This document shows positions 3,801 to 31,170 of a stretch of DNA of 44,689 nucleotides, one piece after another. Below the pieces are notes generated by a model, which was not told the origin of the DNA, searched no databases, and saw only the letters and a program-made list of their open reading frames with translations. This DNA is from Stramenopiles sp. TOSAG23-2 (taxonomy: Eukaryota > Sar): the NCBI GenBank assembly GCA_900128395.1, contig LT649292.1, positions 1 to 44,689 on the forward strand, written 5' to 3'. Position numbers and translations under genes: made by a program. The first letter of the stretch is position 1. Every line of letters starts with the position of its first letter.

Positions 3801-4814
3801 TCAAGCTGTTTGGTTGTTGTTACTACTATTATTATTACTATTATTACTATCAACGTTACTATTATCTGTACTAGGTTTTGGTTCAATATTACCATTATTT
3901 GTTGCAGTAATATTATTGCTTTCACCCGCTTCAACATTGCTAATTTCACTTTTTGCTACTGGTGCGAAAAAATTATTAATTGTATTATTTTGTTCCTGTT
4001 CAGTAGCTGCACCAACTGCACTATTACGCTTTTTAGAAACTTTTGAACGGCGATTAATTGGTGGAAAATCTTGTGCTAAAAATAACATTTGTTCATTTTT
4101 ACGTACAGTTGCAGAGATATCTTCATATTTAATCATCTTTTTTTTCGTTTTTTTACATACACTAAATGCTTCATCGGTCAATTGGCCAAGAAACAGCTCA
4201 GTGCACCATTGAACAAGCAAAGTAGCTTCCTTGGAAGTTCCTTTAACTTCTTTATCCAATTTCATAATTTTTCTAACTCTTGCCGTTGGCAATATATCCA
4301 CAATACGAGGTGGACCCATCATACCATCAGGTCCAAATTTAGCAGCTTCGAATAATTTCAATTGGTTATTGTATTCTTCCAAGTCTTCCTCGTATTGTTG
4401 TTGCAGTGGAATACGTTGCGCACTGTATTCCGCCTTTTTCTCGTCTGAAAGTTCGTTCCATAAACGTCCCAATTCTTTCCCAATCTGACCGATACCCCAT
4501 GTTGGAAATTTTTCCCGAACACTACTTCGAACTTCATTCATAAATATAAAATAAGCAGATTGTGGCCTTTTAGGTTTCACTGGTGGCATACTATTATCTC
4601 TGGCGGGTTTTTTACTATTGGTAGCACTACTGTTACCATTACTATTACTACTACTATTGTTATTGGACATTTGATCATCTCCATCTACGTATTCCGATTG
4701 AAATGATTCCACATGTTGTTCATTCATATCTGTATCCATTTCTTTCGCTTCCCCATTTTCATTTTTCGTTTTTGTTGGGCTTGGTGCTTCGTTTGTTGTT
4801 GTTATCGATGCCAT
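3801..4814 (-). CDS. HMG-box plus NF-YC/CHRAC15-type histone-fold fusion protein
   Basis: This 337-residue protein begins at the ATG at 4814. The frame stays open upstream to 5075, but that part is an AT-repeat translation duplicated on itself, so I do not count it. Residues 1-80 are acidic and Asn/Ser-rich. An HMG box spans about 82-150 (KPKRPQSAYFIFMNE, then GKELGRLWNELSDEKK). A histone-fold domain of the NF-YC/CHRAC15/POLE4 class spans about 172-255, with LPTARVRKIMKLD at its start and FLAQDFPP at its end; the FLxD-x-PP ending looks most like CHRAC15/Dpb3-type subunits. The tail (260-337) holds TINNFF at 278-283, like a weak PCNA-binding box, then Asn/Ser repeats. The HMG box would bend DNA and the histone fold would pair with an NF-YB/Dpb4-like partner not present in this window. 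Acting in chromatin remodelling, replication or transcription is inference. Confidence 0.85.
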   Translation of the reverse strand: MASITTTNEAPSPTKTKNENGEAKEMDTDMNEQHVESFQSEYVDGDDQMSNNNSSSNSNGNSSATNSKKPARDNSMPPVKPKRPQSAYFIFMNEVRSSVREKFPTWGIGQIGKELGRLWNELSDEKKAEYSAQRIPLQQQYEEDLEEYNNQLKLFEAAKFGPDGMMGPPRIVDILPTARVRKIMKLDKEVKGTSKEATLLVQWCTELFLGQLTDEAFSVCKKTKKKMIKYEDISATVRKNEQMLFLAQDFPPINRRSKVSKKRNSAVGAATEQEQNNTINNFFAPVAKSEISNVEAGESNNITATNNGNIEPKPSTDNSNVDSNNSNNNSSNNNQTA

Positions 4815-4867
4815 ATTTTTTGTATATATATAATATATATATGTGTGTGTGTGTATGTATGTATGAA

Positions 4868-5061
4868 TGAATCGTATATTTTGTAGGTATATAATATTTA
4901 TTCTTATTCTTGTATATATATATCTACATAATATATATATATTGTTGTGATATGTATTTCTCCTTATGAATCGTATATTTTGTAGGTATATAATATTTAT
5001 TCTTATTCTTGTATATATATCTCTACATAATATATATATTGTTGTGATATGTATTTCTCCT
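4868..5061. repeat. 99-bp direct tandem duplication upstream of the HMG/histone-fold gene
   Basis: A unit beginning TGAATCGTATATTTTGTAGG occurs at 4868 and again at 4967, nearly identical over about 95 bp. It lies just upstream of the start codon at 4814, probably in the 5' UTR or promoter. It explains the repeated amino acid string in the upstream extension of that reading frame. Confidence 0.9.
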
Positions 5062-5501
5062 TGTTGTTTGTACATTCTAATTTTTCTAGTAATAAAAAAT
5101 GAAGTTTTCTATCTTGTTGCGCGATGTGGTGTGAGTCGTGTGGTGTGTGATCTTCATTCATTTTTTATTATTTTTGTTGTTTGTTGAATTTGATAATTTG
5201 AGGTATGTTTAATGTTGTGGCCCTGTTGCCGCCATCTGTTTTAGTTTATTCAAATCTTTTTTTGGAAATTATCACACTTTTCAAGCACAAAAAAACAGTA
5301 TAGCTCCCAGGGGAGCTCCTTTCCTATATATTATGGCGTCTAAAATTATACCTTAATTGGCCACACAGCAGAGATACTCCTCATACTATATGGCCTTCCA
5401 GCCTTCCAGCCTTCTTCTTTTTTTTTCTAGTTCAACAATTGCTGGAATTATTTTATTTACAATGCACCAATGTTGTGCCAATATTGAATATTGAATGTTA
5501 T

Positions 5502-5677
5502 AAACTAAAATAAAATAAAATATTGAATACATAAATCCTTCTGTACATTAACATATATGGAGGACAATTGATTTCACTAGATATAGACCAAACTAAAATA
5601 AAATAAAATATTGAATACATAAATCCTTCTGTACATTAACATATATGGAGGACAATTGATTTCACTAGATATAGACC
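5502..5677. repeat. 88-bp direct tandem duplication
   Basis: The segment starting AAACTAAAATAAAATAAAAT at 5502 is repeated immediately at 5590 with what looks like complete identity to about 5677. Perfect identity suggests a recent event. It ends about 30 bp before the ATG of the 47-residue ORF at 5706. Confidence 0.92.
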
Positions 5678-5705
5678 ATTGTTACAAAGTACCAACATTT
5701 AAAAT

Positions 5706-6246: not shown

Positions 6247-7353
6247 TTATATTATATTCGTAGTTGATATCCCATCATTTTCCTTTATATATCCATATAA
6301 TATTTGTTTAATTGTTTCATCTTTTTTCTCAGATTTATATTTTTCTTTTTTCAATTTTATTTTATATTCTTCATATAAACGGCGGAGTACCGGCATATAT
6401 TCTTTTTCTACCACACCTTGCTTTTCGGCCGTTCCTGATTTTGTTGTAACATTGCCATTATCATTATTTGATGAACTTGTAAAATATGAATATGACGATG
6501 CAACCGATGTTTTTTTACTTCTATCTGGGTTATAATATTCACTAACTGAGGTTCTTCGATCGTATTTAATTGGTGATTTTTTATTATTTGTCGTTATTGT
6601 TGCTGCTGATGCTGTCGTTGTTGTTAAATTATGATATGGAACGGAATCATCAATTATCTCGTTTGCTGGTAATTTGGATAAATCCTTTACAGCATTTTGT
6701 CTTTTTAATAACAAGTCGCTTCTCTGATGTTTTTTTTTGTTATTACTTAATATCGTTGTTTCGCCAGTTGTTTTATTCATCAATGTCACCCCATCATCAG
6801 TAATCTTATTTTTTGACAGAGTAGTTAAAATAGTTCTTGTAATTTGTGGAGTTTCAAATAATGCGGTACGTATAAGGACTGTAACAACATCTCCATTTTC
6901 CACAATAAAGGTCTTCTTATCAAATATAATTCTAGTATTTTCATACCAGCGATTTAATCCGCTGTAGTACATACATTATTCATGGATGAATGATGTGTTA
7001 GAATGGATATATTTTACAAGTTCAAGGTGAATAGAATATACTTACTATCTTAATCTTTCATAACCCCAATGATCTATAGCCGATCGAGTTAATTTTTTTA
7101 CTTGTTTTGCTTTATATGTATAAGCAATCCATGAATTTATACTTTTACGTAATGATAAATTTAACCAGAATTTCATTGCTATTCTAATTTCATCAAATTT
7201 ATTTTTACGAGTAGCACCTTGTTGTTTTCGCTTTGAATGTTGTTGACTTTGTTTCAATATATCAGTTAAGAAATTACGTTTCCCACCGGCTAATTTTGAA
7301 AAAAATAACGATGCTTTTTTATTATCACCATTACTATTTACGACACGTGGCAT
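6247..7353 (-). CDS. Two-exon gene with Sfi1/centrin-binding-like Trp repeats (340 aa)
   Basis: Exon 1 is 7353-7046 and exon 2 is 6961-6247. Joining them gives one 340-residue frame across a codon split TA|C (Tyr). The 84-bp intron starts GTAAGT, has TTCTAAC near 6997-7003 and ends CAG. Across the junction the protein reads AIDHWGYERLR|YGLNRWYENTR. This continues a helical pattern of Trp residues spaced 12, 21 and 12 apart from KFW near residue 63, resembling Sfi1 repeats that bind centrin in centrosome and basal-body fibres. The rest is Ser/Thr/Asn-rich, with a charged, probably coiled-coil C-terminus (EYMPVLRRLYEEYKIKLKK). Neither exon alone makes sense as a gene. The Sfi1 link rests on pattern only and the repeat count is small, so function is tentative. 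Confidence 0.7.
6962..7045 (-). other. Spliceosomal intron (84 bp)
   Basis: Read on the minus strand it begins GTAAGTATATTC, carries CCATTCTAACAC as a branch-point match about 35 nt before the end, and ends TACTACAG. Removal restores a frame that otherwise stops at TAG directly across the donor. Confidence 0.85.
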
Positions 7354-7442
7354 AAAATTATTATTAAAAATTCACCAAATCTATCCAAAAAAATAACGAT
7401 GCTTTTTTATTATCACCATTACTATTTACGACACGTGGCATG
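7300..7442. repeat. 88-bp-period duplication of the Sfi1-like gene's first codons
   Basis: About 54 bp, from AACGATGCTTTTTTATTATC to GACACGTGGCAT, occurs inside the gene at about 7300-7353 and again at 7388-7441. The copied block is the first 18 codons including the start codon. The upstream copy therefore gives a second ATG (7441), and its frame would need checking in transcripts. Confidence 0.88.
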
Positions 7443-8651
7443 AAATCCCGAAATATATTATCATTATTCGTGAGGTGTGTTTTTAGTTTCCATTTTTTTA
7501 TACCTAGTATGTGGTAACGTTTCTATATACAGGTAAGTTAAAATAAGGTTTGTACATATATCTATTGAGGAGATGCTTTTTGTATTCTATTTTTATATCA
7601 GCACATCACAGGAACAAATATTGATATATTTCAACCGTACTCTGTTACTTTTCTATTTACTTAAATTATAGAGACAATACACATTTAGTCCTATATGGAA
7701 TTAACCTCACAACATCATTGTGACCTAATAGTAACTACGAGTCGTAAACCTTAACCTACTGTTTATGCGAATAACATAGCGGGGTTTCCTGAGTAGGGCC
7801 AATAAAGGAAGGAGTAAATATTTTAAGGGAATACATGTGTACATGATCCATGTGGCAAATTATACGAGGCCTCGTACTGGTAGCTACCTCGTACATTCTA
7901 CCGATCAGGTATCGCAATTATTATTGACATTTTGATATTTATATTACAGCCTTATGGAGGAAGCGAATAATTGGGGCAAGATTACTAAAGTGTTGTGGCA
8001 GAAATACCATTGGTCGTAGTATGTCTGCTGTATATACAATGTTTAAAGATAAGAAAATGGAATTAATGATATTCGCTACCGGAAATATATCGGGAAACAG
8101 GGACTGCATCGAAGGAAATTGAAGATAAAACATTTTCAATGAGGATAAAACGAGAAAAAACAACATCAAAGGACAAAGCCACAGTGTAGTAATTTACTCA
8201 TGATAATTTCTACTCTTTCAAAAGAATACATAGTAACTAAACCTTAACCTGCGCACCAGCTGCCAAGCTTACATGAGAATTCTCTCTGACTGTACCTGGT
8301 ATGTATTAGTATAGTTGTTTCCTGAGTGACGAGGCCCCTTAATTAAAATAAAGGAAGGAGTAAATATTTTAAGGGAATACATGTTAATGTGTACATGATT
8401 ATAAATATAAGAAGCTTATTATATAAATATAAATATTATATATATATAAATTATATATGTATTTTTGTATAAAAGAGTATGTACACTATGTAAAGATATA
8501 CAAAAAGATATGATTACTCTCCTCTAGTATAACCTCACACAACACATACATAAAGATGTTATTGTCACCATCATACCAGAATCACCATGCCATTACACGG
8601 CGTATATGATTACTCTCCTCTAGTATAACCTCACACAACACATACATAAAG
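7354..8651. other. 1.3-kb spacer with dispersed repeats, no clear gene
   Basis: Two related blocks sit about 550 bp apart. A 38-bp identical run (AATAAAGGAAGGAGTAAATA and onward) is at 7801-7838 and 8348-8385, each followed by GTACATGAT and preceded by TTTCCTGAGT. A 32-bp piece at 7764-7795 recurs in reverse complement at 40597-40628 with one difference. Between the blocks (about 7950-8190) short open stretches exist on both strands, but nothing I recognise. This looks like decayed transposon or repeat material. Confidence 0.6.
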
Positions 8652-8703
8652 ATGTTATTGTCACCATCATACCAGAATCACCATGCCATTACACGGCGTA
8701 TAT
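8508..8703. repeat. 96-bp tandem duplication that creates a uORF at the sulfurtransferase start
   Basis: The block from ATATGATTACTCTCCTCTAG to CATTACACGGCGTATATG is present twice in direct succession (ATG at 8556 and again at 8652). In the first copy, the ATG is followed by 16 sense codons and then TGA because the copy joins back to its own start. In the second copy the frame runs on into the enzyme. The transcript, if it starts upstream of 8556, carries a 17-codon uORF encoding the same first residues as the enzyme leader. Confidence 0.9.
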
Positions 8704-10190
8704 GTATGATTCAAAGAGCATTATGGTTCTCCTCATCAACAACAAAAAGTAATAGACAAAATGTTTTAATGTCTACTGATGATTTATTACATAAAATTAA
8801 TTCAGGAAATAAATCTTTGTACATTTTTGATGCATCTTGGCATATGCCAGCTGCTAACCGAGATGGCAAAGCAGAATTTATACAACATCGGATACCAGGA
8901 AATACACATTTTTTTGATATTGATCGTCTTGCGGATATAAATACTGATTTACCACACTCATTTCCAAACAAAGATATTTTTCAGAATTATATAAATAACG
9001 ATATTCAATTAGTAAATAATTCAGAAGTTGTTGTTTATGATTCTGTTGGTATGTTTAGTGCCGCGCGATGTTGGTATATGTTTAAGTACTTTGGTCATCC
9101 AAATGTAAAAATGTTAGATGGAGGTTTAACAAAATGGATTAGTGAAAATAAACCTATTGTTTCTGGAGATGAAGCTCATCATTTTAACGATACAAATAAT
9201 AATATTTTTCAAGCATCTGATCATTTAGACTCATCCACATCAATTGTTCCTTTGATTGATATGGATCCAAACAATACTAAATCTTCTAGTAGTGACATGA
9301 ATCAATTCACTATTTTAGATGCTAGGTCATCTGATCGATTTTATGCAAAAGTTTCAGAACCAAGGGCAGGTATACGTTCTGGTCATATTCCTGGATCCAA
9401 CAATATCCCATTCAATACACTGCTTAAAAATCCAAGTGACATGGATTCATTTTTAGAAGACAAAGAGTTATTGAAATTATTTCATGATGCAGGAATAGAT
9501 TTATCCAATGATTCAAAACCAATAGTAACTACATGTGGATCCGGTGTTACTGCATGTGTCATCATAGCTGCAATGGAAATATTAGGTAGAACAAATAAAG
9601 TTCGACTTTTTGATGATAGTTGGACTGGCTATGGTGGTAGTGACTTTGAAGTTTCAATTAAAAATAAAAAATTAATCGACAAGCTATTTGCAAAATGTGA
9701 TATACGTGTTGGTGAAATGTTAAAAGTTACTCCAGTATTTGGAAGTGACAAATTATACTGCGAAGAAATTGATGTTGGCGAGGAAAAGCCTAGGCAAGTT
9801 GTTAGTGGTATAGCACCATATTATACACCAGAAGAATTAGTAGGTAAAAAAGTATTGGTTGTGTGCAATATAAAAAAGAACAAAATTAGAAAAGTTGATT
9901 CGTTTGGAATGATTCTTTGTGCGGAAGATACGGAGAGTGGAATAGTAGAAATTGTTGAACCACCAAGTCATGTAAAAAATGGAGAGCAAATATTTTTAAT
10001 TGGTGAATTTGAAAAGGATATAACAACTGCAAATCAAATGAAGAAAAGGAAAATATTTGAAAATGTTGTCACACATTTAAAAAGCAATGATAACTGTATA
10101 GCAACGTTCGATGACATCCCGTTAATTGTTGGAAATGATAAGAACAATATTTGTATGGTAAAAAATGTTAGAAACGGTTGGATAAAATAA
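8652..10190 (+). CDS. MPST: Mercaptopyruvate sulfurtransferase (tandem rhodanese) fused to an EMAPII-type tRNA-binding domain
   Basis: This is a 512-residue fusion. Residues 1-40 are basic and Ser-rich and could be a mitochondrial leader, with Met40 as a possible alternative start. The first, inactive rhodanese domain is at about 41-170 (FDASWHMP, MLDGGLTKW) and the second at about 218-335, with catalytic loop CGSGVTAC (Cys295), the form typical of 3-mercaptopyruvate sulfurtransferases. From about 348 to the end the protein is an OB-fold tRNA-binding domain plus the EMAPII-specific C-terminal extension: IRVGEM near 351, RQVVSGIAPYYTPEEL near 381, then NDNCIATF and the ending GWIK. That module normally sits on AIMP1, MetRS or TyrRS. 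MPST/Tum1 passes persulfide sulfur to Uba4/Urm1 for tRNA wobble-uridine thiolation. Delivering sulfur at tRNA is therefore an attractive inference. There is no intron, and the frame is unbroken through the domain junction. Confidence 0.9.
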   Translation: MLLSPSYQNHHAITRRICMIQRALWFSSSTTKSNRQNVLMSTDDLLHKINSGNKSLYIFDASWHMPAANRDGKAEFIQHRIPGNTHFFDIDRLADINTDLPHSFPNKDIFQNYINNDIQLVNNSEVVVYDSVGMFSAARCWYMFKYFGHPNVKMLDGGLTKWISENKPIVSGDEAHHFNDTNNNIFQASDHLDSSTSIVPLIDMDPNNTKSSSSDMNQFTILDARSSDRFYAKVSEPRAGIRSGHIPGSNNIPFNTLLKNPSDMDSFLEDKELLKLFHDAGIDLSNDSKPIVTTCGSGVTACVIIAAMEILGRTNKVRLFDDSWTGYGGSDFEVSIKNKKLIDKLFAKCDIRVGEMLKVTPVFGSDKLYCEEIDVGEEKPRQVVSGIAPYYTPEELVGKKVLVVCNIKKNKIRKVDSFGMILCAEDTESGIVEIVEPPSHVKNGEQIFLIGEFEKDITTANQMKKRKIFENVVTHLKSNDNCIATFDDIPLIVGNDKNNICMVKNVRNGWIK

Positions 10191-10364
10191 ATATTATACA
10201 GTTCGTATGTATTACGCGTATGCCATACATACAAGGAAAAAAATAATTGTTGGAAATGATAAGAACAATATTTGTATGGTAAAAAATGTTAGAAACGGTT
10301 GGATAAAATAAATATTATACAGTTCGTATGTATATATATGTATGCCATACGTACATACAAGAAA
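10123..10364. repeat. 121-bp tandem duplication of the sulfurtransferase 3' end
   Basis: The last 22 codons, stop and start of the 3' UTR (from TAATTGTTGGAAATGATAAG) are at 10123 and again at 10244, almost identical except near ATTACGCG/ATATATATG. The second copy lies after the stop codon and is presumably untranslated. Confidence 0.9.
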
Positions 10365-10890
10365 AAAAATGGATATTTTCACATCATGTGTAACAGAAAA
10401 TTTACATTTCTCGTACTCTGATAATACCACATTATTCATTTTAAAAAATATAAAATATATTTATGTGTGTATGTAAGAGAAAATTTTTATATTTATTGTG
10501 TACGAACCTCGTATTTATATAATATATATTCACTCTTCTCTTCTCTCTCCTTATACGTCGTACGTATATTATTAGTTCGTACATTTATAAAAATATAAAA
10601 GACAATGATTAATGATTTTATATGGTCATATATGCATATATCATCTCTCAAACTTTATAAACATACACACTTCCAAATTGATAACACGAGAAGTGTAAAA
10701 TTATTATAACTTAGATTTTAACCATCATATATATATTTAAAAATATAAAAAAAAAGCACGAACACTCTTCTCTTCTCTCTCTCTCCTTATACGTCGTACG
10801 TATATTATAGTTCGTACTCGTACATTTAAATATGACATATAAAAGACATGATTAATGATTTTATATGTTCATATATGCATATATCATCTC
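10191..10890. other. Convergent 3' spacer between the sulfurtransferase and RecQ genes
   Basis: This is made largely of two tandem duplications (121 and 232 bp units, listed separately). No gene is present; open stretches on the minus strand are translations of the duplicated gene ends. Confidence 0.7.
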
Positions 10891-10923
10891 TCAAACTTTA
10901 TAAACATACACACTTCCAAATTG
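10531..10923. repeat. ~232-bp duplication covering the RecQ 3' end
   Basis: A block beginning CACTCTTCTCTTCTCTCTCC at 10531 recurs at 10763. The copies run through GTACGTATATTA, AAAGACA, ATTAATGATTTTATATG and ATATCATCTCTCAAACTTTA to CACTTCCAAATTG. The second copy contains the last codons and stop of the minus-strand RecQ gene. The first copy is a detached duplicate of that gene end. Confidence 0.88.
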
Positions 10924-22687: not shown

Positions 22688-23723
22688 TGTATCTATAAAA
22701 CTAGTGAAAATTACGATGTATAATACAAAAGAAGAAGATACTGTCTGTTTATATGTTCTTTGGCTAAATAAATGGATGGACCTTTTGCACTTTGCTTTTC
22801 TTCTTCTTCTTCTTCTTTTTTTTTGTTTTCTATGGGTGCATGGATTGATTTTTGGATTTTTTTTGAGCCAAAAAAAAAATCAGTATAGCTATAGATAGGT
22901 TGATGGATTTAGAAATAAGTATGAATTATAATAGTCTAATGTATTACTATAATTTATTTTTTTATAGCTGAAGAAAAACCACCTTAAAAAATATTTTTAA
23001 AAACTCCCTACCATGCTATAATGTAAATGTAAATGGGACCATGGGATAGTAAGCCTTGTAAATAAGACGGATGAAACTCTCCTCAAAACTCAAAACAGGC
23101 GTGGTCAAATTAGTACAGATTTAGTATACTATAAATATATATTTATATAGTATAATATAAAAAATCGGATATTCTAGATATTTTCATCCAATTAACATTG
23201 GTCATTTTTGGATTTTATGGATTTATTATCTTCCAAGATCTACCTATCAAATATTTATAGTATACTAAATCTGTACTAATTTGACCACGCCTGTTTTGAG
23301 GAGAGTTTCATCCGTCTTATTTAGAATATCCGATTTTTTATATTATCCTATCAAATATATATTTATAGTATACTAAATCTGTACTAATTAGACCACGCCT
23401 GTTTTGAGGAGAGTTTCATCCGTCTTATTTACAAGGATTAACAGGATGATTGAACTTCTTTCGTCTAACGCGGTTAATCATCTTCTTCCTTAATAATAAA
23501 AAAAAAAAAATCTTTATTCTAACTACATCATATACAAATTACAATTATACCAAGCATACACATTCTACTATTAGTATTATTTATATTGAATTTCGGAAAA
23601 TGAAAAAAATAAGAAAAAACGTTTTGATGTGTGTATGTGTGTGTGTGGATTATAATATATGAAAATTACTGATAAGCAATTATATAGTTTGAAGAAACAG
23701 GAAAAATAAAAAAAGCAATTAAA
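22688..23723. other. Spacer holding a foldback element
   Basis: Contains the 383-bp foldback element listed separately, CTT and poly-T tracts near 22800-22870, and a TG run near 23625-23648. Open stretches at 22704 and 23450 are low-complexity and unlike proteins, and I see no gene. Confidence 0.6.
23054..23436. mobile_element. 383-bp foldback (MITE-like) element
   Basis: The element starts CCTTGTAAATAAGACGGATG at 23054 and ends with the exact reverse complement, ending ACAAGG at 23436. The arms are long: about 120 bp of the left arm (through GGCGTGGTC, TTAGTACAGATTTAGTATAC and AAAAAATCGGATATTCTA) pair with 23310-23436. An additional, shorter copy of the right arm (about 23250-23322) sits inside. 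The left arm has a small internal duplication (CAAAACTCAAAAC). There is no coding capacity. No clear target-site duplication is visible at the ends. Confidence 0.82.
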
Positions 23724-29270: not shown

Positions 29271-31170
29271 TCAGTAATAGCTAATTCCACTATTCGTGCT
29301 ATTGCCACTTGAACTGTTACTTGAATTACTTCTAATGCTGCTAGAACTGCTAATAGTAGAACGGCTTTCATCGTCTTTATACAACATGGGCTGTTCATTA
29401 TCATGTTGTTGTTGTTCTTGCTGCTGCTGTTGCCCTTTCTTCTTCTCAACACGATTTGCATCTGTATTACCATACATTATCCAATTTTTTATTATGTCAT
29501 TGTTTGATTTTCTACTTTCAAAAATATAATCAAGCGTTTTCACAGTTCGTTTATTAGGATATACGCAGGTGAAATTTGTTGTGGATGCCCTATCAAATTC
29601 CTCTTTAGTTTCCAATAAAATGTCTCTTCGTGGTTGATTTGTTTGTGATTTTGCTCCTGTTGGCACTCCAACAATATGCAATGCATCGGTCAACATTCCA
29701 TATTTTAATCGTTTATCAAATGGAGAGGCACTCATCATGGATGGATAAATATTTACCTCGATTAAATACACTTTCAAATTTTCATCAAACATTAAATCGA
29801 ATCCAAACAATTCAAAACAACATTCATCGCGCCCACGCATCCCAACGCATTTTGGATAACATTCACTCTCAGCTGCAATTAACGTTTTCGCAGCAACATC
29901 TTGCATATCACGTAATAATTTCTTTGTATCCCTACCCTCCACCTTCAATTTATTTAAAAATGAGCTAAACGATTGTTTCGAACCGGTATCATCTTCATCT
30001 GCACTTCTATTTTCAACAAAATCATCACTATTTTTATTGATAGAATAATTTGTTAAATGTTTGTACGAATCTTTCAATTCATTTGCATTTAAATTGTACT
30101 CATGCGTACATAAACGAACCATGCCTTCATTATACATATATACTCTTAATGGATTAAAGCTTGTAACCATTACATAAAATCTACAATCAAATTTACGATT
30201 GTCAATTAAACATGGGTTGCCGATGTAACGTTGTACCTGAATTTTGTATATATATTTATACATTCATGAAAAATGTTAGATTTTTTTCCTAACAAATATA
30301 AAGTTGTTTTTATACAAACTGTCGAATATATATATATATACAGATAGTACGAATATAAATCTAAATCCTACTTACATTCCAAACCTTATTCTTTGTTTCG
30401 CCAGTGCTTTTTAATTTACGTTTCAATGGTAAATTTTTCACATCTTTTGTTCTCATGACTTTGATGCCACGGCCACAACTTCCGCCTTGTGGTTTACAGA
30501 TCCATACATCATCTAAATCTACCTCGCCTTTTTTCAATTTCTTCTTCTTTCCTCCACGACTTTTCATATTTTTTTGACGTTCCACATCTGCATAAAAACG
30601 CTCAATATCCATAGGATTTCCACGTATAATATGTGTTTCAGGAAGAAAGCTAAATGCATCATCACGCAAGCGACGTTGAAAACGACGAAATAAAGTTGCA
30701 CAACGATCTTTGGCTCCAATACAGCCAGTTCCAGGGAATGAATTGACTCGCTTATGCATCGGTAAATGTCTATATGCATCATTCGGTAAATGTTTTCCCC
30801 ATAATACATCCCATGAATTATCTTCTTTATCAAGACAACGTGCAAAACCAGCTTCTCGAAAAACAGCTTTGACAGAATTTCGCATCCAATACGTTTTATA
30901 TTTTAAATCAAGCAAACGGCGAGGTCCATGTGATTGTTCAGTTGATCGCTTGGCTACTTTAGCAGCATCAGGATAATCGAAAAAAATTGTTTCATTACCA
31001 GTACGATATCTTGATGATAATAAAATAGGCTCTTTTCGTTTTGGTGATAGAGGCCAGTTTTTACGCCCAGAACTTTTAGATGATGCAGAAGAAGTGTTTG
31101 AACTGGTAGAGGATGGCCGTTTTTTTTTCAAAGATTTTTTTTTTTTTTTTGGTTTTGTTGTTAATTTCAT
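29271..31170 (-). CDS. Two-exon tubulin tyrosine ligase-like glutamylase (TTLL4/5-like)
   Basis: Exon 1 is 31170-30376 and exon 2 is 30236-29271. The joined frame gives 586 residues, the junction reading KVWN|VQRYIGNP in phase 0, exactly the TTL-domain sequence expected there. The N-terminus is Lys/Ser-rich. The TTL ATP-grasp domain runs from about 100 to 450. Motifs in order are WDVLWGKHLP, NSFPGTG, AKDRCATLFRRF, FLPETHII, WICKPQGGSCGRGI (ATP-binding Lys and Gly loop), KFDCRFYVMVTSFNPLRVYMY, HLTNYSINK (325-333), DLMFDENLKVYLIEVN (Mg ligands Glu425 and Asn427) and PSMMSASPFDKRLK. The enzyme adds glutamate to tubulin tails, mainly on axonemes and basal bodies. The SPFD variant after PSM favours the TTLL4/TTLL5 branch. 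The Gln/Ser/Asn-rich tail is low complexity. Confidence 0.9.
30237..30375 (-). other. Spliceosomal intron (139 bp)
   Basis: On the minus strand it begins GTAAGTAGGATTTAG, contains a TA run and AAATCTAACATTTT as branch-point match, and ends AAAATTCAG. Without splicing the frame stops three codons past the donor (AGG-ATT-TAG). Confidence 0.9.

Follow-up and report, generated by a model that had tools for sequence, protein, structure and literature searches.

Mercaptopyruvate sulfurtransferase (MPST/TUM1) is a documented but non-essential sulfur donor in tRNA thiolation, and its loss in human cells brings the cytosolic 2-thiolation of wobble U34 (s2U34) down to about 60-70% (PMC9856076). The tRNA-binding OB folds of the EMAPII/Trbp111 class have been described separately: Trbp111 grips only the 3'-terminal C75-A76 of tRNA, Arc1p binds the same two nucleotides with an extra contact, and the class contacts the 3'-CA end rather than the anticodon arm (PMC11286949). 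In a third system, the s4U8 synthetase ThiI of the Escherichia coli type, a THUMP domain that uses the 3'-CCA end as a ruler is combined with a rhodanese domain in one chain (PMC4041423). Here, we describe a gene on a 44,689-nucleotide contig of Stramenopiles sp. TOSAG23-2 (LT649292.1, assembly GCA_900128395.1; this whole stretch is called the window) whose predicted protein is an MPST joined to a full EMAPII-type OB fold.

The fusion gene (positions 8652-10190, forward strand, as are all its parts given below), delineated by its open reading frame (ORF), Pfam and searches for protein homologues, runs as a single ORF from ATG to TAA and encodes 512 amino acids free of stops and frameshifts, in agreement with the one uninterrupted frame claimed in the initial annotation. 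Pfam identified two stretches of PF00581 (Rhodanese, E 2.6e-22) and one of PF01588 (tRNA_bind, residues 351-445, E 3.2e-28, 98.1 bits against a gathering cut-off of 27). The first, non-catalytic rhodanese domain covers residues 58-164 (8823-9143; Pfam and the rhodanese scan of the genome), and the second, catalytic one covers residues 217-327 (9300-9632; the same genome scan) and holds the active-site loop CGSGVTAC at residues 295-302 (9534-9557; alignment and numbering). A junction of 19 residues (329-347, 9636-9692, by alignment) leads into the EMAPII/Trbp111-type OB fold (351-445, 9702-9986; Pfam and alignments to PDB chains, including 1pyb), which is followed by the EMAPII C-terminal extension, the pseudo-dimer part (447-512, 9990-10187; PDB and homologue alignments). 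Residues 53-326 align to the MPST chains 5wqk (E 1.2e-47), 3olh and 4jgt (both E 3e-44), and the yeast TUM1 chain 3utn aligns to residues 58-327 (E 7.7e-37). Residues 347-512 align to the whole human EMAPII/AIMP1 domain to its end, extension included (8ong, E 2.3e-22; 1euj, E 2.7e-22; also 1fl0), as the annotation had read them, while the best-scoring PDB match for the OB part is the TyrRS C-domain 1ntg (residues 347-487, E 5.5e-25).

The initial annotation had proposed a search for the same two-domain architecture, and this search found it in four further proteins. Among about 5.8 billion proteins, the best matches to the window protein were P0001 (99% identity), P0002 (61-62%), P0003 (62%) and P0004 (53%), all of 494-516 amino acids and with both Pfam domains present. 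Compared with MPST/TUM1, with which they share the tandem rhodanese architecture, the fusions carry some 165 additional C-terminal residues that form an EMAPII domain, and tRNA_bind was absent from the other 116 of the best 120 of 4456 matches (8000 candidates scored), all plain MPST. With the OB part as the query, the same four fusions were among the best 120 of 233 matches; with the OB part of P0004 as the query, the best 120 of 219 matches included P0002 and P0003 besides P0004 itself, with P0001 not among them and no further fusion. P0002 carries a name for the sulfurtransferase half only. Since P0001 sits on a 2,319-base JGI contig, separate from the window contig, a chimera in the window assembly is excluded. 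The window protein is 64-68% identical to P0002-P0004 in the first rhodanese domain, 60-75% in the second and 61-69% in the OB fold, with lower values for the linker (50-61%), the C-terminal extension (37-51%) and the N-terminus (27-34%); by this comparison, the rhodanese and OB parts are conserved to about an equal degree. Viral contigs and prokaryote contigs were each scanned with two short patterns, a weak test, which gave 62 and 586 pattern matches, respectively; tblastn confirmed none of them as a relative.

Phylogenetic trees of the two halves were built from 69 of the 228 EMAPII rows after thinning (P0001 omitted) and from 62 MPST rows, the latter made up of 4 fusions plus 58 plain MPST proteins out of the 116 listed (every second listed match, giving 57 with P0037 omitted, plus P0100). 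In both trees, the fusions formed one clade (support 100/98 for the OB part and 100/100 for the MPST part) with the branching order (P0004,(window,(P0002,P0003))). Support for grouping the window protein with P0002 and P0003 was 99/80 in the OB tree and weak, at 95/25, in the MPST tree, in which the fusion rows fail the test of letter make-up. One fusion event followed by joint inheritance of both halves fits these trees best.

The catalytic half appears intact. Cys295, which lies in the second of the two PF00581 stretches, as well as Ser297, Arg229 and Arg238 were present in every one of the 26 proteins aligned (4 fusions plus 22 chosen from the 116 listed plain MPST matches), and the CGSGVTAC motif is also present in the MPST chains 4jgt and 3olh. 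The MPST loop reads CGSG(V/I)T, as opposed to CRKGVT in thiosulfate rhodanese, and Arg229 and Arg238 are taken to correspond to the substrate-binding R188 and R197 of human MPST. The column of residue 80, taken to correspond to His74 of human MPST, is mostly His (18 of the 26 rows), with Arg in 6 rows and Ala and Cys in one row each; the window protein and P0001 have Arg there, and P0002-P0004 have His. Damage to catalysis by R80 was considered and set aside, since Arg in 6 of the 26 rows, the window protein included, suggests that it is tolerated. The cut-off of 250 bits for the NCBIfam MPST equivalog NF008557 was not reached by the window protein (179.5 bits), P0002 (203.5), P0003 (198.2) or P0004 (192.5), a shortfall that leaves eukaryotic membership possible because the model names bacterial and archaeal genes. 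Pfam, PDB alignments and residue numbering thus agree with the tandem-rhodanese MPST with Cys295 of the initial annotation, and we predict the rhodanese half to be a 3-mercaptopyruvate sulfurtransferase of the MPST/TUM1 kind.

For the OB half, we examined the predicted pocket loop for the tRNA 3' end (residues 408-420, 9873-9911), assigned by alignment to 1pyb and the residue roles given for Trbp111 (PMC11286949); K408, N410, R413, S417 and M420 lie in the stretch equivalent to Trbp111 K73-M85. The equivalents of K73, S82, G84 and M85 are retained in 5 of 5 fusions, a set of rows that includes the near-identical window protein and P0001, and K33 is matched by K in 4 of the 5. The full domain with its C-terminal extension is shared with AIMP1/p43, Arc1p and the appendices of stramenopile MetRS and GluRS, whereas in these it sits on a synthetase or scaffold and here on a sulfurtransferase. 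The fusions further differ from other EMAPII domains in carrying Lys at both positions 74 and 79: 4 of the 5 do so, but only one of the 223 other EMAPII rows (P0312, the one row of 228 that the regular expression for the residue counts dropped, read by eye). These two lysines flank the pocket and could provide an extra basic contact like that of the Arc1p middle domain. The NCBIfam models metG_C_term and CsaA scored 100.8 and 45.8 bits, both under their cut-offs.

The N-termini bear on the cellular location of the fusions. The N-terminal segment of the window protein (residues 1-37, 8652-8762), a presumed mitochondrial presequence by composition counts, is basic and has no acidic residue within its first 35 residues. 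Its start codon is ambiguous between M1 and M19 (8706), as the sequence of P0001 starts at the counterpart of M19. Counts of acidic/basic residues in the first 35 positions were 0/5 for the window protein, 1/5 for P0002, 0/7 for P0003 and 3/6 for P0004, and 2/4 and 1/8 for the window protein and P0004 when counted from M19; the controls gave 0/9 for the organellar-type MetRS of this genome and 8/3 for its TyrRS. By these residue counts, all four distinct fusions have a basic N-terminus poor in acidic residues (P0004 when read from M19), which suggests mitochondrial import, with the plastid as a possible alternative destination.

We tentatively favour, at somewhat less than an even chance, the explanation that the fusion donates persulfide sulfur while tethered to tRNA, that it probably does so in mitochondria, and that it is a candidate for the carrier between Nfs1 and Mtu1. 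This reading is backed by the single frame, by the architecture kept in four distinct sequences, by the similar conservation and shared branching order of the two halves, and by the retained catalytic Cys, two Arg and core pocket residues. In the proposed mechanism, Cys295 would accept sulfane sulfur as a persulfide, with 3-mercaptopyruvate or a cysteine desulfurase as its source, the OB domain would grip the 3'-CA end of a tRNA, and the persulfide would be handed over within the tRNA-containing complex to a tRNA-thiolating enzyme acting on that tRNA, which, in mitochondria, would most likely be a 2-thiouridylase of the MTU1/MnmA type. An MPST with an OB fold of the CCA-binding type and a mitochondrial-looking N-terminus would fit the role of a carrier linking mitochondrial Nfs1 to Mtu1, for which a 2017 review postulated an unidentified protein (PMC5372729). 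An MPST/TUM1 isoform has since been named in this position: sulfur of mitochondrial NFS1 travels via TUM1-Iso2 according to an introductory statement (PMC9856076), and one MPST isoform is reported to contact NFS1 in mitochondria, for which a role in the thiolation of mitochondrial tRNA was suggested (PMC10135228). It is also relevant that the Arc1p OB domain, when fused to a non-tRNA enzyme, reportedly conferred activity on tRNA (PMC11286949). The fusion may work like the CCA-gripping and rhodanese modules of E. coli-type ThiI, which likewise stand in one chain (PMC4041423), assembled from unrelated parts: an OB fold replaces THUMP, the fold is unrelated, and the fusion has no Pfam match to THUMP or PP-loop domains. 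The comparison is of working principle only and would imply no common ancestry of the CCA-binding parts.

Several observations weigh against such a tethered donor. The R75 equivalent is replaced by A (3) or N (2) and the F78 equivalent by A (3) or R (2) in the five fusions, P0003 has T in place of K33, and in Trbp111 the R75A exchange almost eliminates binding (PMC11286949). R75 is retained in 76 of 77 GluRS rows, while A75 is usual in MetRS (72 of 108) and TyrRS rows (13 of 14; class labels were taken from Pfam columns, with MetRS the default for rows not otherwise listed). This argument is softened because Arc1p, with V271 at position 75, still binds tRNA (PMC11286949). Position 78 is V in 72 of the 108 MetRS rows and R in Arc1p (R274) and in 10 of the 14 TyrRS rows; the window protein has the Arc1p-like R and the other fusions, apart from its near-identical P0001, a small residue like that of MetRS. 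Almost every EMAPII row retains K73, S82 and M85, so these residues point to an intact pocket of the fold but not to one special to the fusions. On its own, EMAPII has a low affinity for tRNA (Kd ~20-40 uM), and Arc1p and AIMP1 require an additional domain (PMC11286949). The 18-residue helical moment (window 0.45, or 0.33 from M19; P0002 0.40; P0003 0.34; P0004 0.45, or 0.74 from M19) fails to separate the fusions from the cytosolic TyrRS (0.39; organellar MetRS 0.56). The 2017 review states that no mitochondrial NFS1-TUM1 interaction had then been shown (PMC5372729), and a search of the genome assembly (17.45 Mb, 793 contigs) for MTU1/MnmA (PF03054) found none, with a control positive in 14 of 14 genomes. 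Finally, the CCA end is far from U34, a geometry that disfavours direct delivery to U34 by one molecule and in view of which we favour a hand-over to a thiolase that acts on that tRNA.

The initial annotation had suggested that the fusion could place the sulfur donor on its tRNA substrate for U34 thiolation by way of Uba4 and Urm1. The link to thiolation is plausible because MPST/TUM1 is a documented donor (PMC9856076); the positioning itself finds less support, since a fold of the EMAPII/Trbp class binds the 3'-terminal CA and the OB domain alone would not bring Cys295 to U34. An unlikely alternative is a cytosolic TUM1 with a tRNA handle, in which sulfur would pass from Nfs1 through the fusion to Uba4, Urm1 and Ncs6/Ncs2 for s2U34. 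MPST/TUM1 participates in this route in yeast and human cells, where it is non-essential (PMC9856076, PMC5372729), yet U34 sulfur goes through Urm1, so that contact of the donor with tRNA would be needless. Uba4 and Urm1 operate in the cytosol. The N-termini of the fusions, judged by residue counts, point to mitochondria instead.

The genes of the route were looked for in the same assembly, in family searches run exon by exon, which can miss genes because introns exist in this genome. In the window, for example, a tubulin-tyrosine-ligase gene (29271-31170, reverse strand) consists of two ORFs that, on inspection by eye, seem to be separated by a GT-AG intron (about 30375-30237). At least 10 rhodanese matches were found, two of which belong to the fusion; none of the other eight was MPST-like by frame reading (five of the eight scanned), an observation in favour of the cytosolic route, although the list of 10 is a lower bound. 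One of them (C160) is a second tandem-rhodanese protein without the CGSG loop. None of 11 ThiF matches shared a contig with a rhodanese match, and neither a Uba4 gene (ThiF plus rhodanese) nor Urm1 (control positive in 1 of 14 genomes), CTU2 (0 of 14) or CTU1 (TIGR00269, 7 of 14) was found in the assembly, whose ATP_bind_3 frames were all judged TilS-like. By the yardstick of proteasome subunits, with 7 matches against the 14 expected, the assembly seems about half complete, so the absence of Urm1, Uba4, CTU1, CTU2 and MTU1 is weak evidence: each is near a coin toss, and even jointly they do no more than hint at a lack of the usual s2U34 route.

The origin of the OB part bears on a second alternative. 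Its nearest named non-fusion relatives, among the best 120 of 233 matches, are the C-terminal appendices of stramenopile MetRS (Chrysoparadoxa, Thraustotheca, Phytophthora and diatoms); the OB part of P0004 is also near the appendices of organellar-type GluRS, one from the diatom Fistulifera, among its best 120 of 219 matches, with MetRS and GluRS tied at 137 bits each. Acquisition from TyrRS was rejected, as the window protein scores 144 bits with the best MetRS against 109 with the best TyrRS. In the OB tree, oomycete MetRS (82/89) and a long-branch MetRS (80/70) are candidate sisters. A transfer in which MetRS lost its EMAPII to MPST was also considered, since the only full MetRS match in the assembly (C293, a 599-codon frame) is without EMAPII, and was rejected as unproven: this MetRS is about 30-35% identical to EMAPII-bearing MetRS (best 40 rows) and has an organellar-looking N-terminus, and no cytosolic MetRS was found in the assembly, where two weaker MetRS matches were left unexamined. 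Separately, the TyrRS of this genome (L002:1300-2943, G000:C166) has an EMAPII tail that scores 162 bits with MetRS-type EMAPII and 115 bits with the available EMAPII rows of TyrRS. Together with the neighbours of the fusion's OB part, this tail suggests a stramenopile source. According to precomputed Pfam labels, many of the EMAPII tails in P0237-P0323 sit on organellar-type GluRS (including that of Fistulifera), and of P0227 and P0126 one combines the tail with PheRS alpha and the other with a HutD domain. The EMAPII module seems widely mobile. A 205-residue protein at L003:1255-1872 (G000:C181), neither TyrRS nor MetRS, combines a tRNA_bind OB fold, its only family, with CxxC pairs and an acidic N-terminus.

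The affinity of the OB part to MetRS appendices (for P0004, to MetRS and GluRS alike) would suit a trans-acting tRNA cofactor like Arc1p or AIMP1 that docks MPST in a synthetase assembly, with its sulfur chemistry (H2S, persulfide, cysteine breakdown) serving separately or in sensing. Among the matches listed, EMAPII is found mostly on synthetases (MetRS, GluRS, TyrRS and one PheRS-alpha) or beside GST-like domains. However, Pfam detects no GST-like or other assembly domain in the fusion, synthetase appendices work in cis, and the catalytic residues checked are retained; we regard this cofactor as improbable, to the same degree as the cytosolic route.

Less probable still is an OB domain that no longer binds tRNA and forms a stabilising or chaperone-like tail, resembling CsaA, on an ordinary mitochondrial MPST. 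The replaced R75 and F78 equivalents are compatible with such a tail, and CsaA itself shows an alternative use of the fold (PMC11286949), but the K73, S82, G84 and M85 equivalents are retained in all five fusions, the OB part is conserved as well as the enzyme part, and metG_C_term outscores CsaA, albeit with both below their cut-offs. Chemistry at the aminoacyl end is conceivable, given that the 3'-CA end expected to be bound by the OB domain is the site of the amino acid, and on this basis we consider it a long shot that the persulfide is passed to the Cys of Cys-tRNA, or to a synthetase-bound intermediate, to give CysSSH-tRNA for persulfidation coupled to mitochondrial translation. The CysRS of E. 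coli reportedly produces CysSSH-tRNA (PMC10655014), and the fusion would, if this were true, represent a dedicated sulfurtransferase working on charged tRNA. The merging of two adjacent genes by an assembly or frame error can practically be discounted, and chance or artefact as the source of the fusion was rejected on P0001-P0004: exact short tandem duplications at both gene ends may signal assembly trouble, but they leave the reading frame unbroken, a 99% copy is present on a different contig, and the junction is shared by three diverged homologues.

The architecture is real, conserved and, as far as searched, apparently undescribed, as a variant of MPST/TUM1 with an inferred function. Full-text searches of the literature, with most subscription journals outside their reach, returned no description of an EMAPII or other tRNA-binding domain fused to MPST or a rhodanese, none of the titles listed by looser searches concerned such a fusion, and to that extent the novelty claimed in the initial annotation is borne out. 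As a natural fusion, MPST-EMAPII constitutes genomic evidence tying MPST to tRNA and offers one protein in which to test the link, and a donor tethered to tRNA would bear on how sulfur moves from Nfs1 to Mtu1, a step that was unidentified in 2017 (PMC5372729). The presence of the EMAPII appendix, here mostly on synthetases and cofactors, on a sulfur enzyme also suggests that the module can bring other chemistry to tRNA. A different class of rhodanese proteins, TrhO/UPF0176 (TSTD2-like), acts on tRNA U34 (PMC10135228), but by hydroxylation and with a single rhodanese and an acylphosphatase-like domain, unlike the fusion. Two TrhO/UPF0176-like rhodanese proteins were seen in the assembly (L008 and L011), one of them with a 617-codon frame that includes a long extension at the C-terminus.

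A repeat scan of the window found direct repeats at both ends of the fusion gene, namely an exact 96-nt tandem duplication across the 5' end and start codon (8508-8704) and an exact 90-nt direct repeat (10123-10212 and 10244-10333, spanning 10123-10333), the second copy of which lies beyond the stop codon and duplicates the 3' end of the coding sequence. In the window, closely spaced exact direct repeats (41-127 nt) occur seven times (4867-5020, 5502-5678, 7299-7441, 8508-8704, 10123-10333, 10626-10923 and 23283-23431) and also in 10 of 34 other loci, including L005, L010, L016, L025, L029, L032 and L033, with the overlapping L029 and L030 carrying one shared repeat. They are either a trait of the genome or an assembly artefact. 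No tRNA genes or Rfam families were found in the window. Elsewhere in it, a gene on the reverse strand (3801-5075) encodes a 424-residue protein that combines an HMG box with a histone-fold domain of the NF-Y type.

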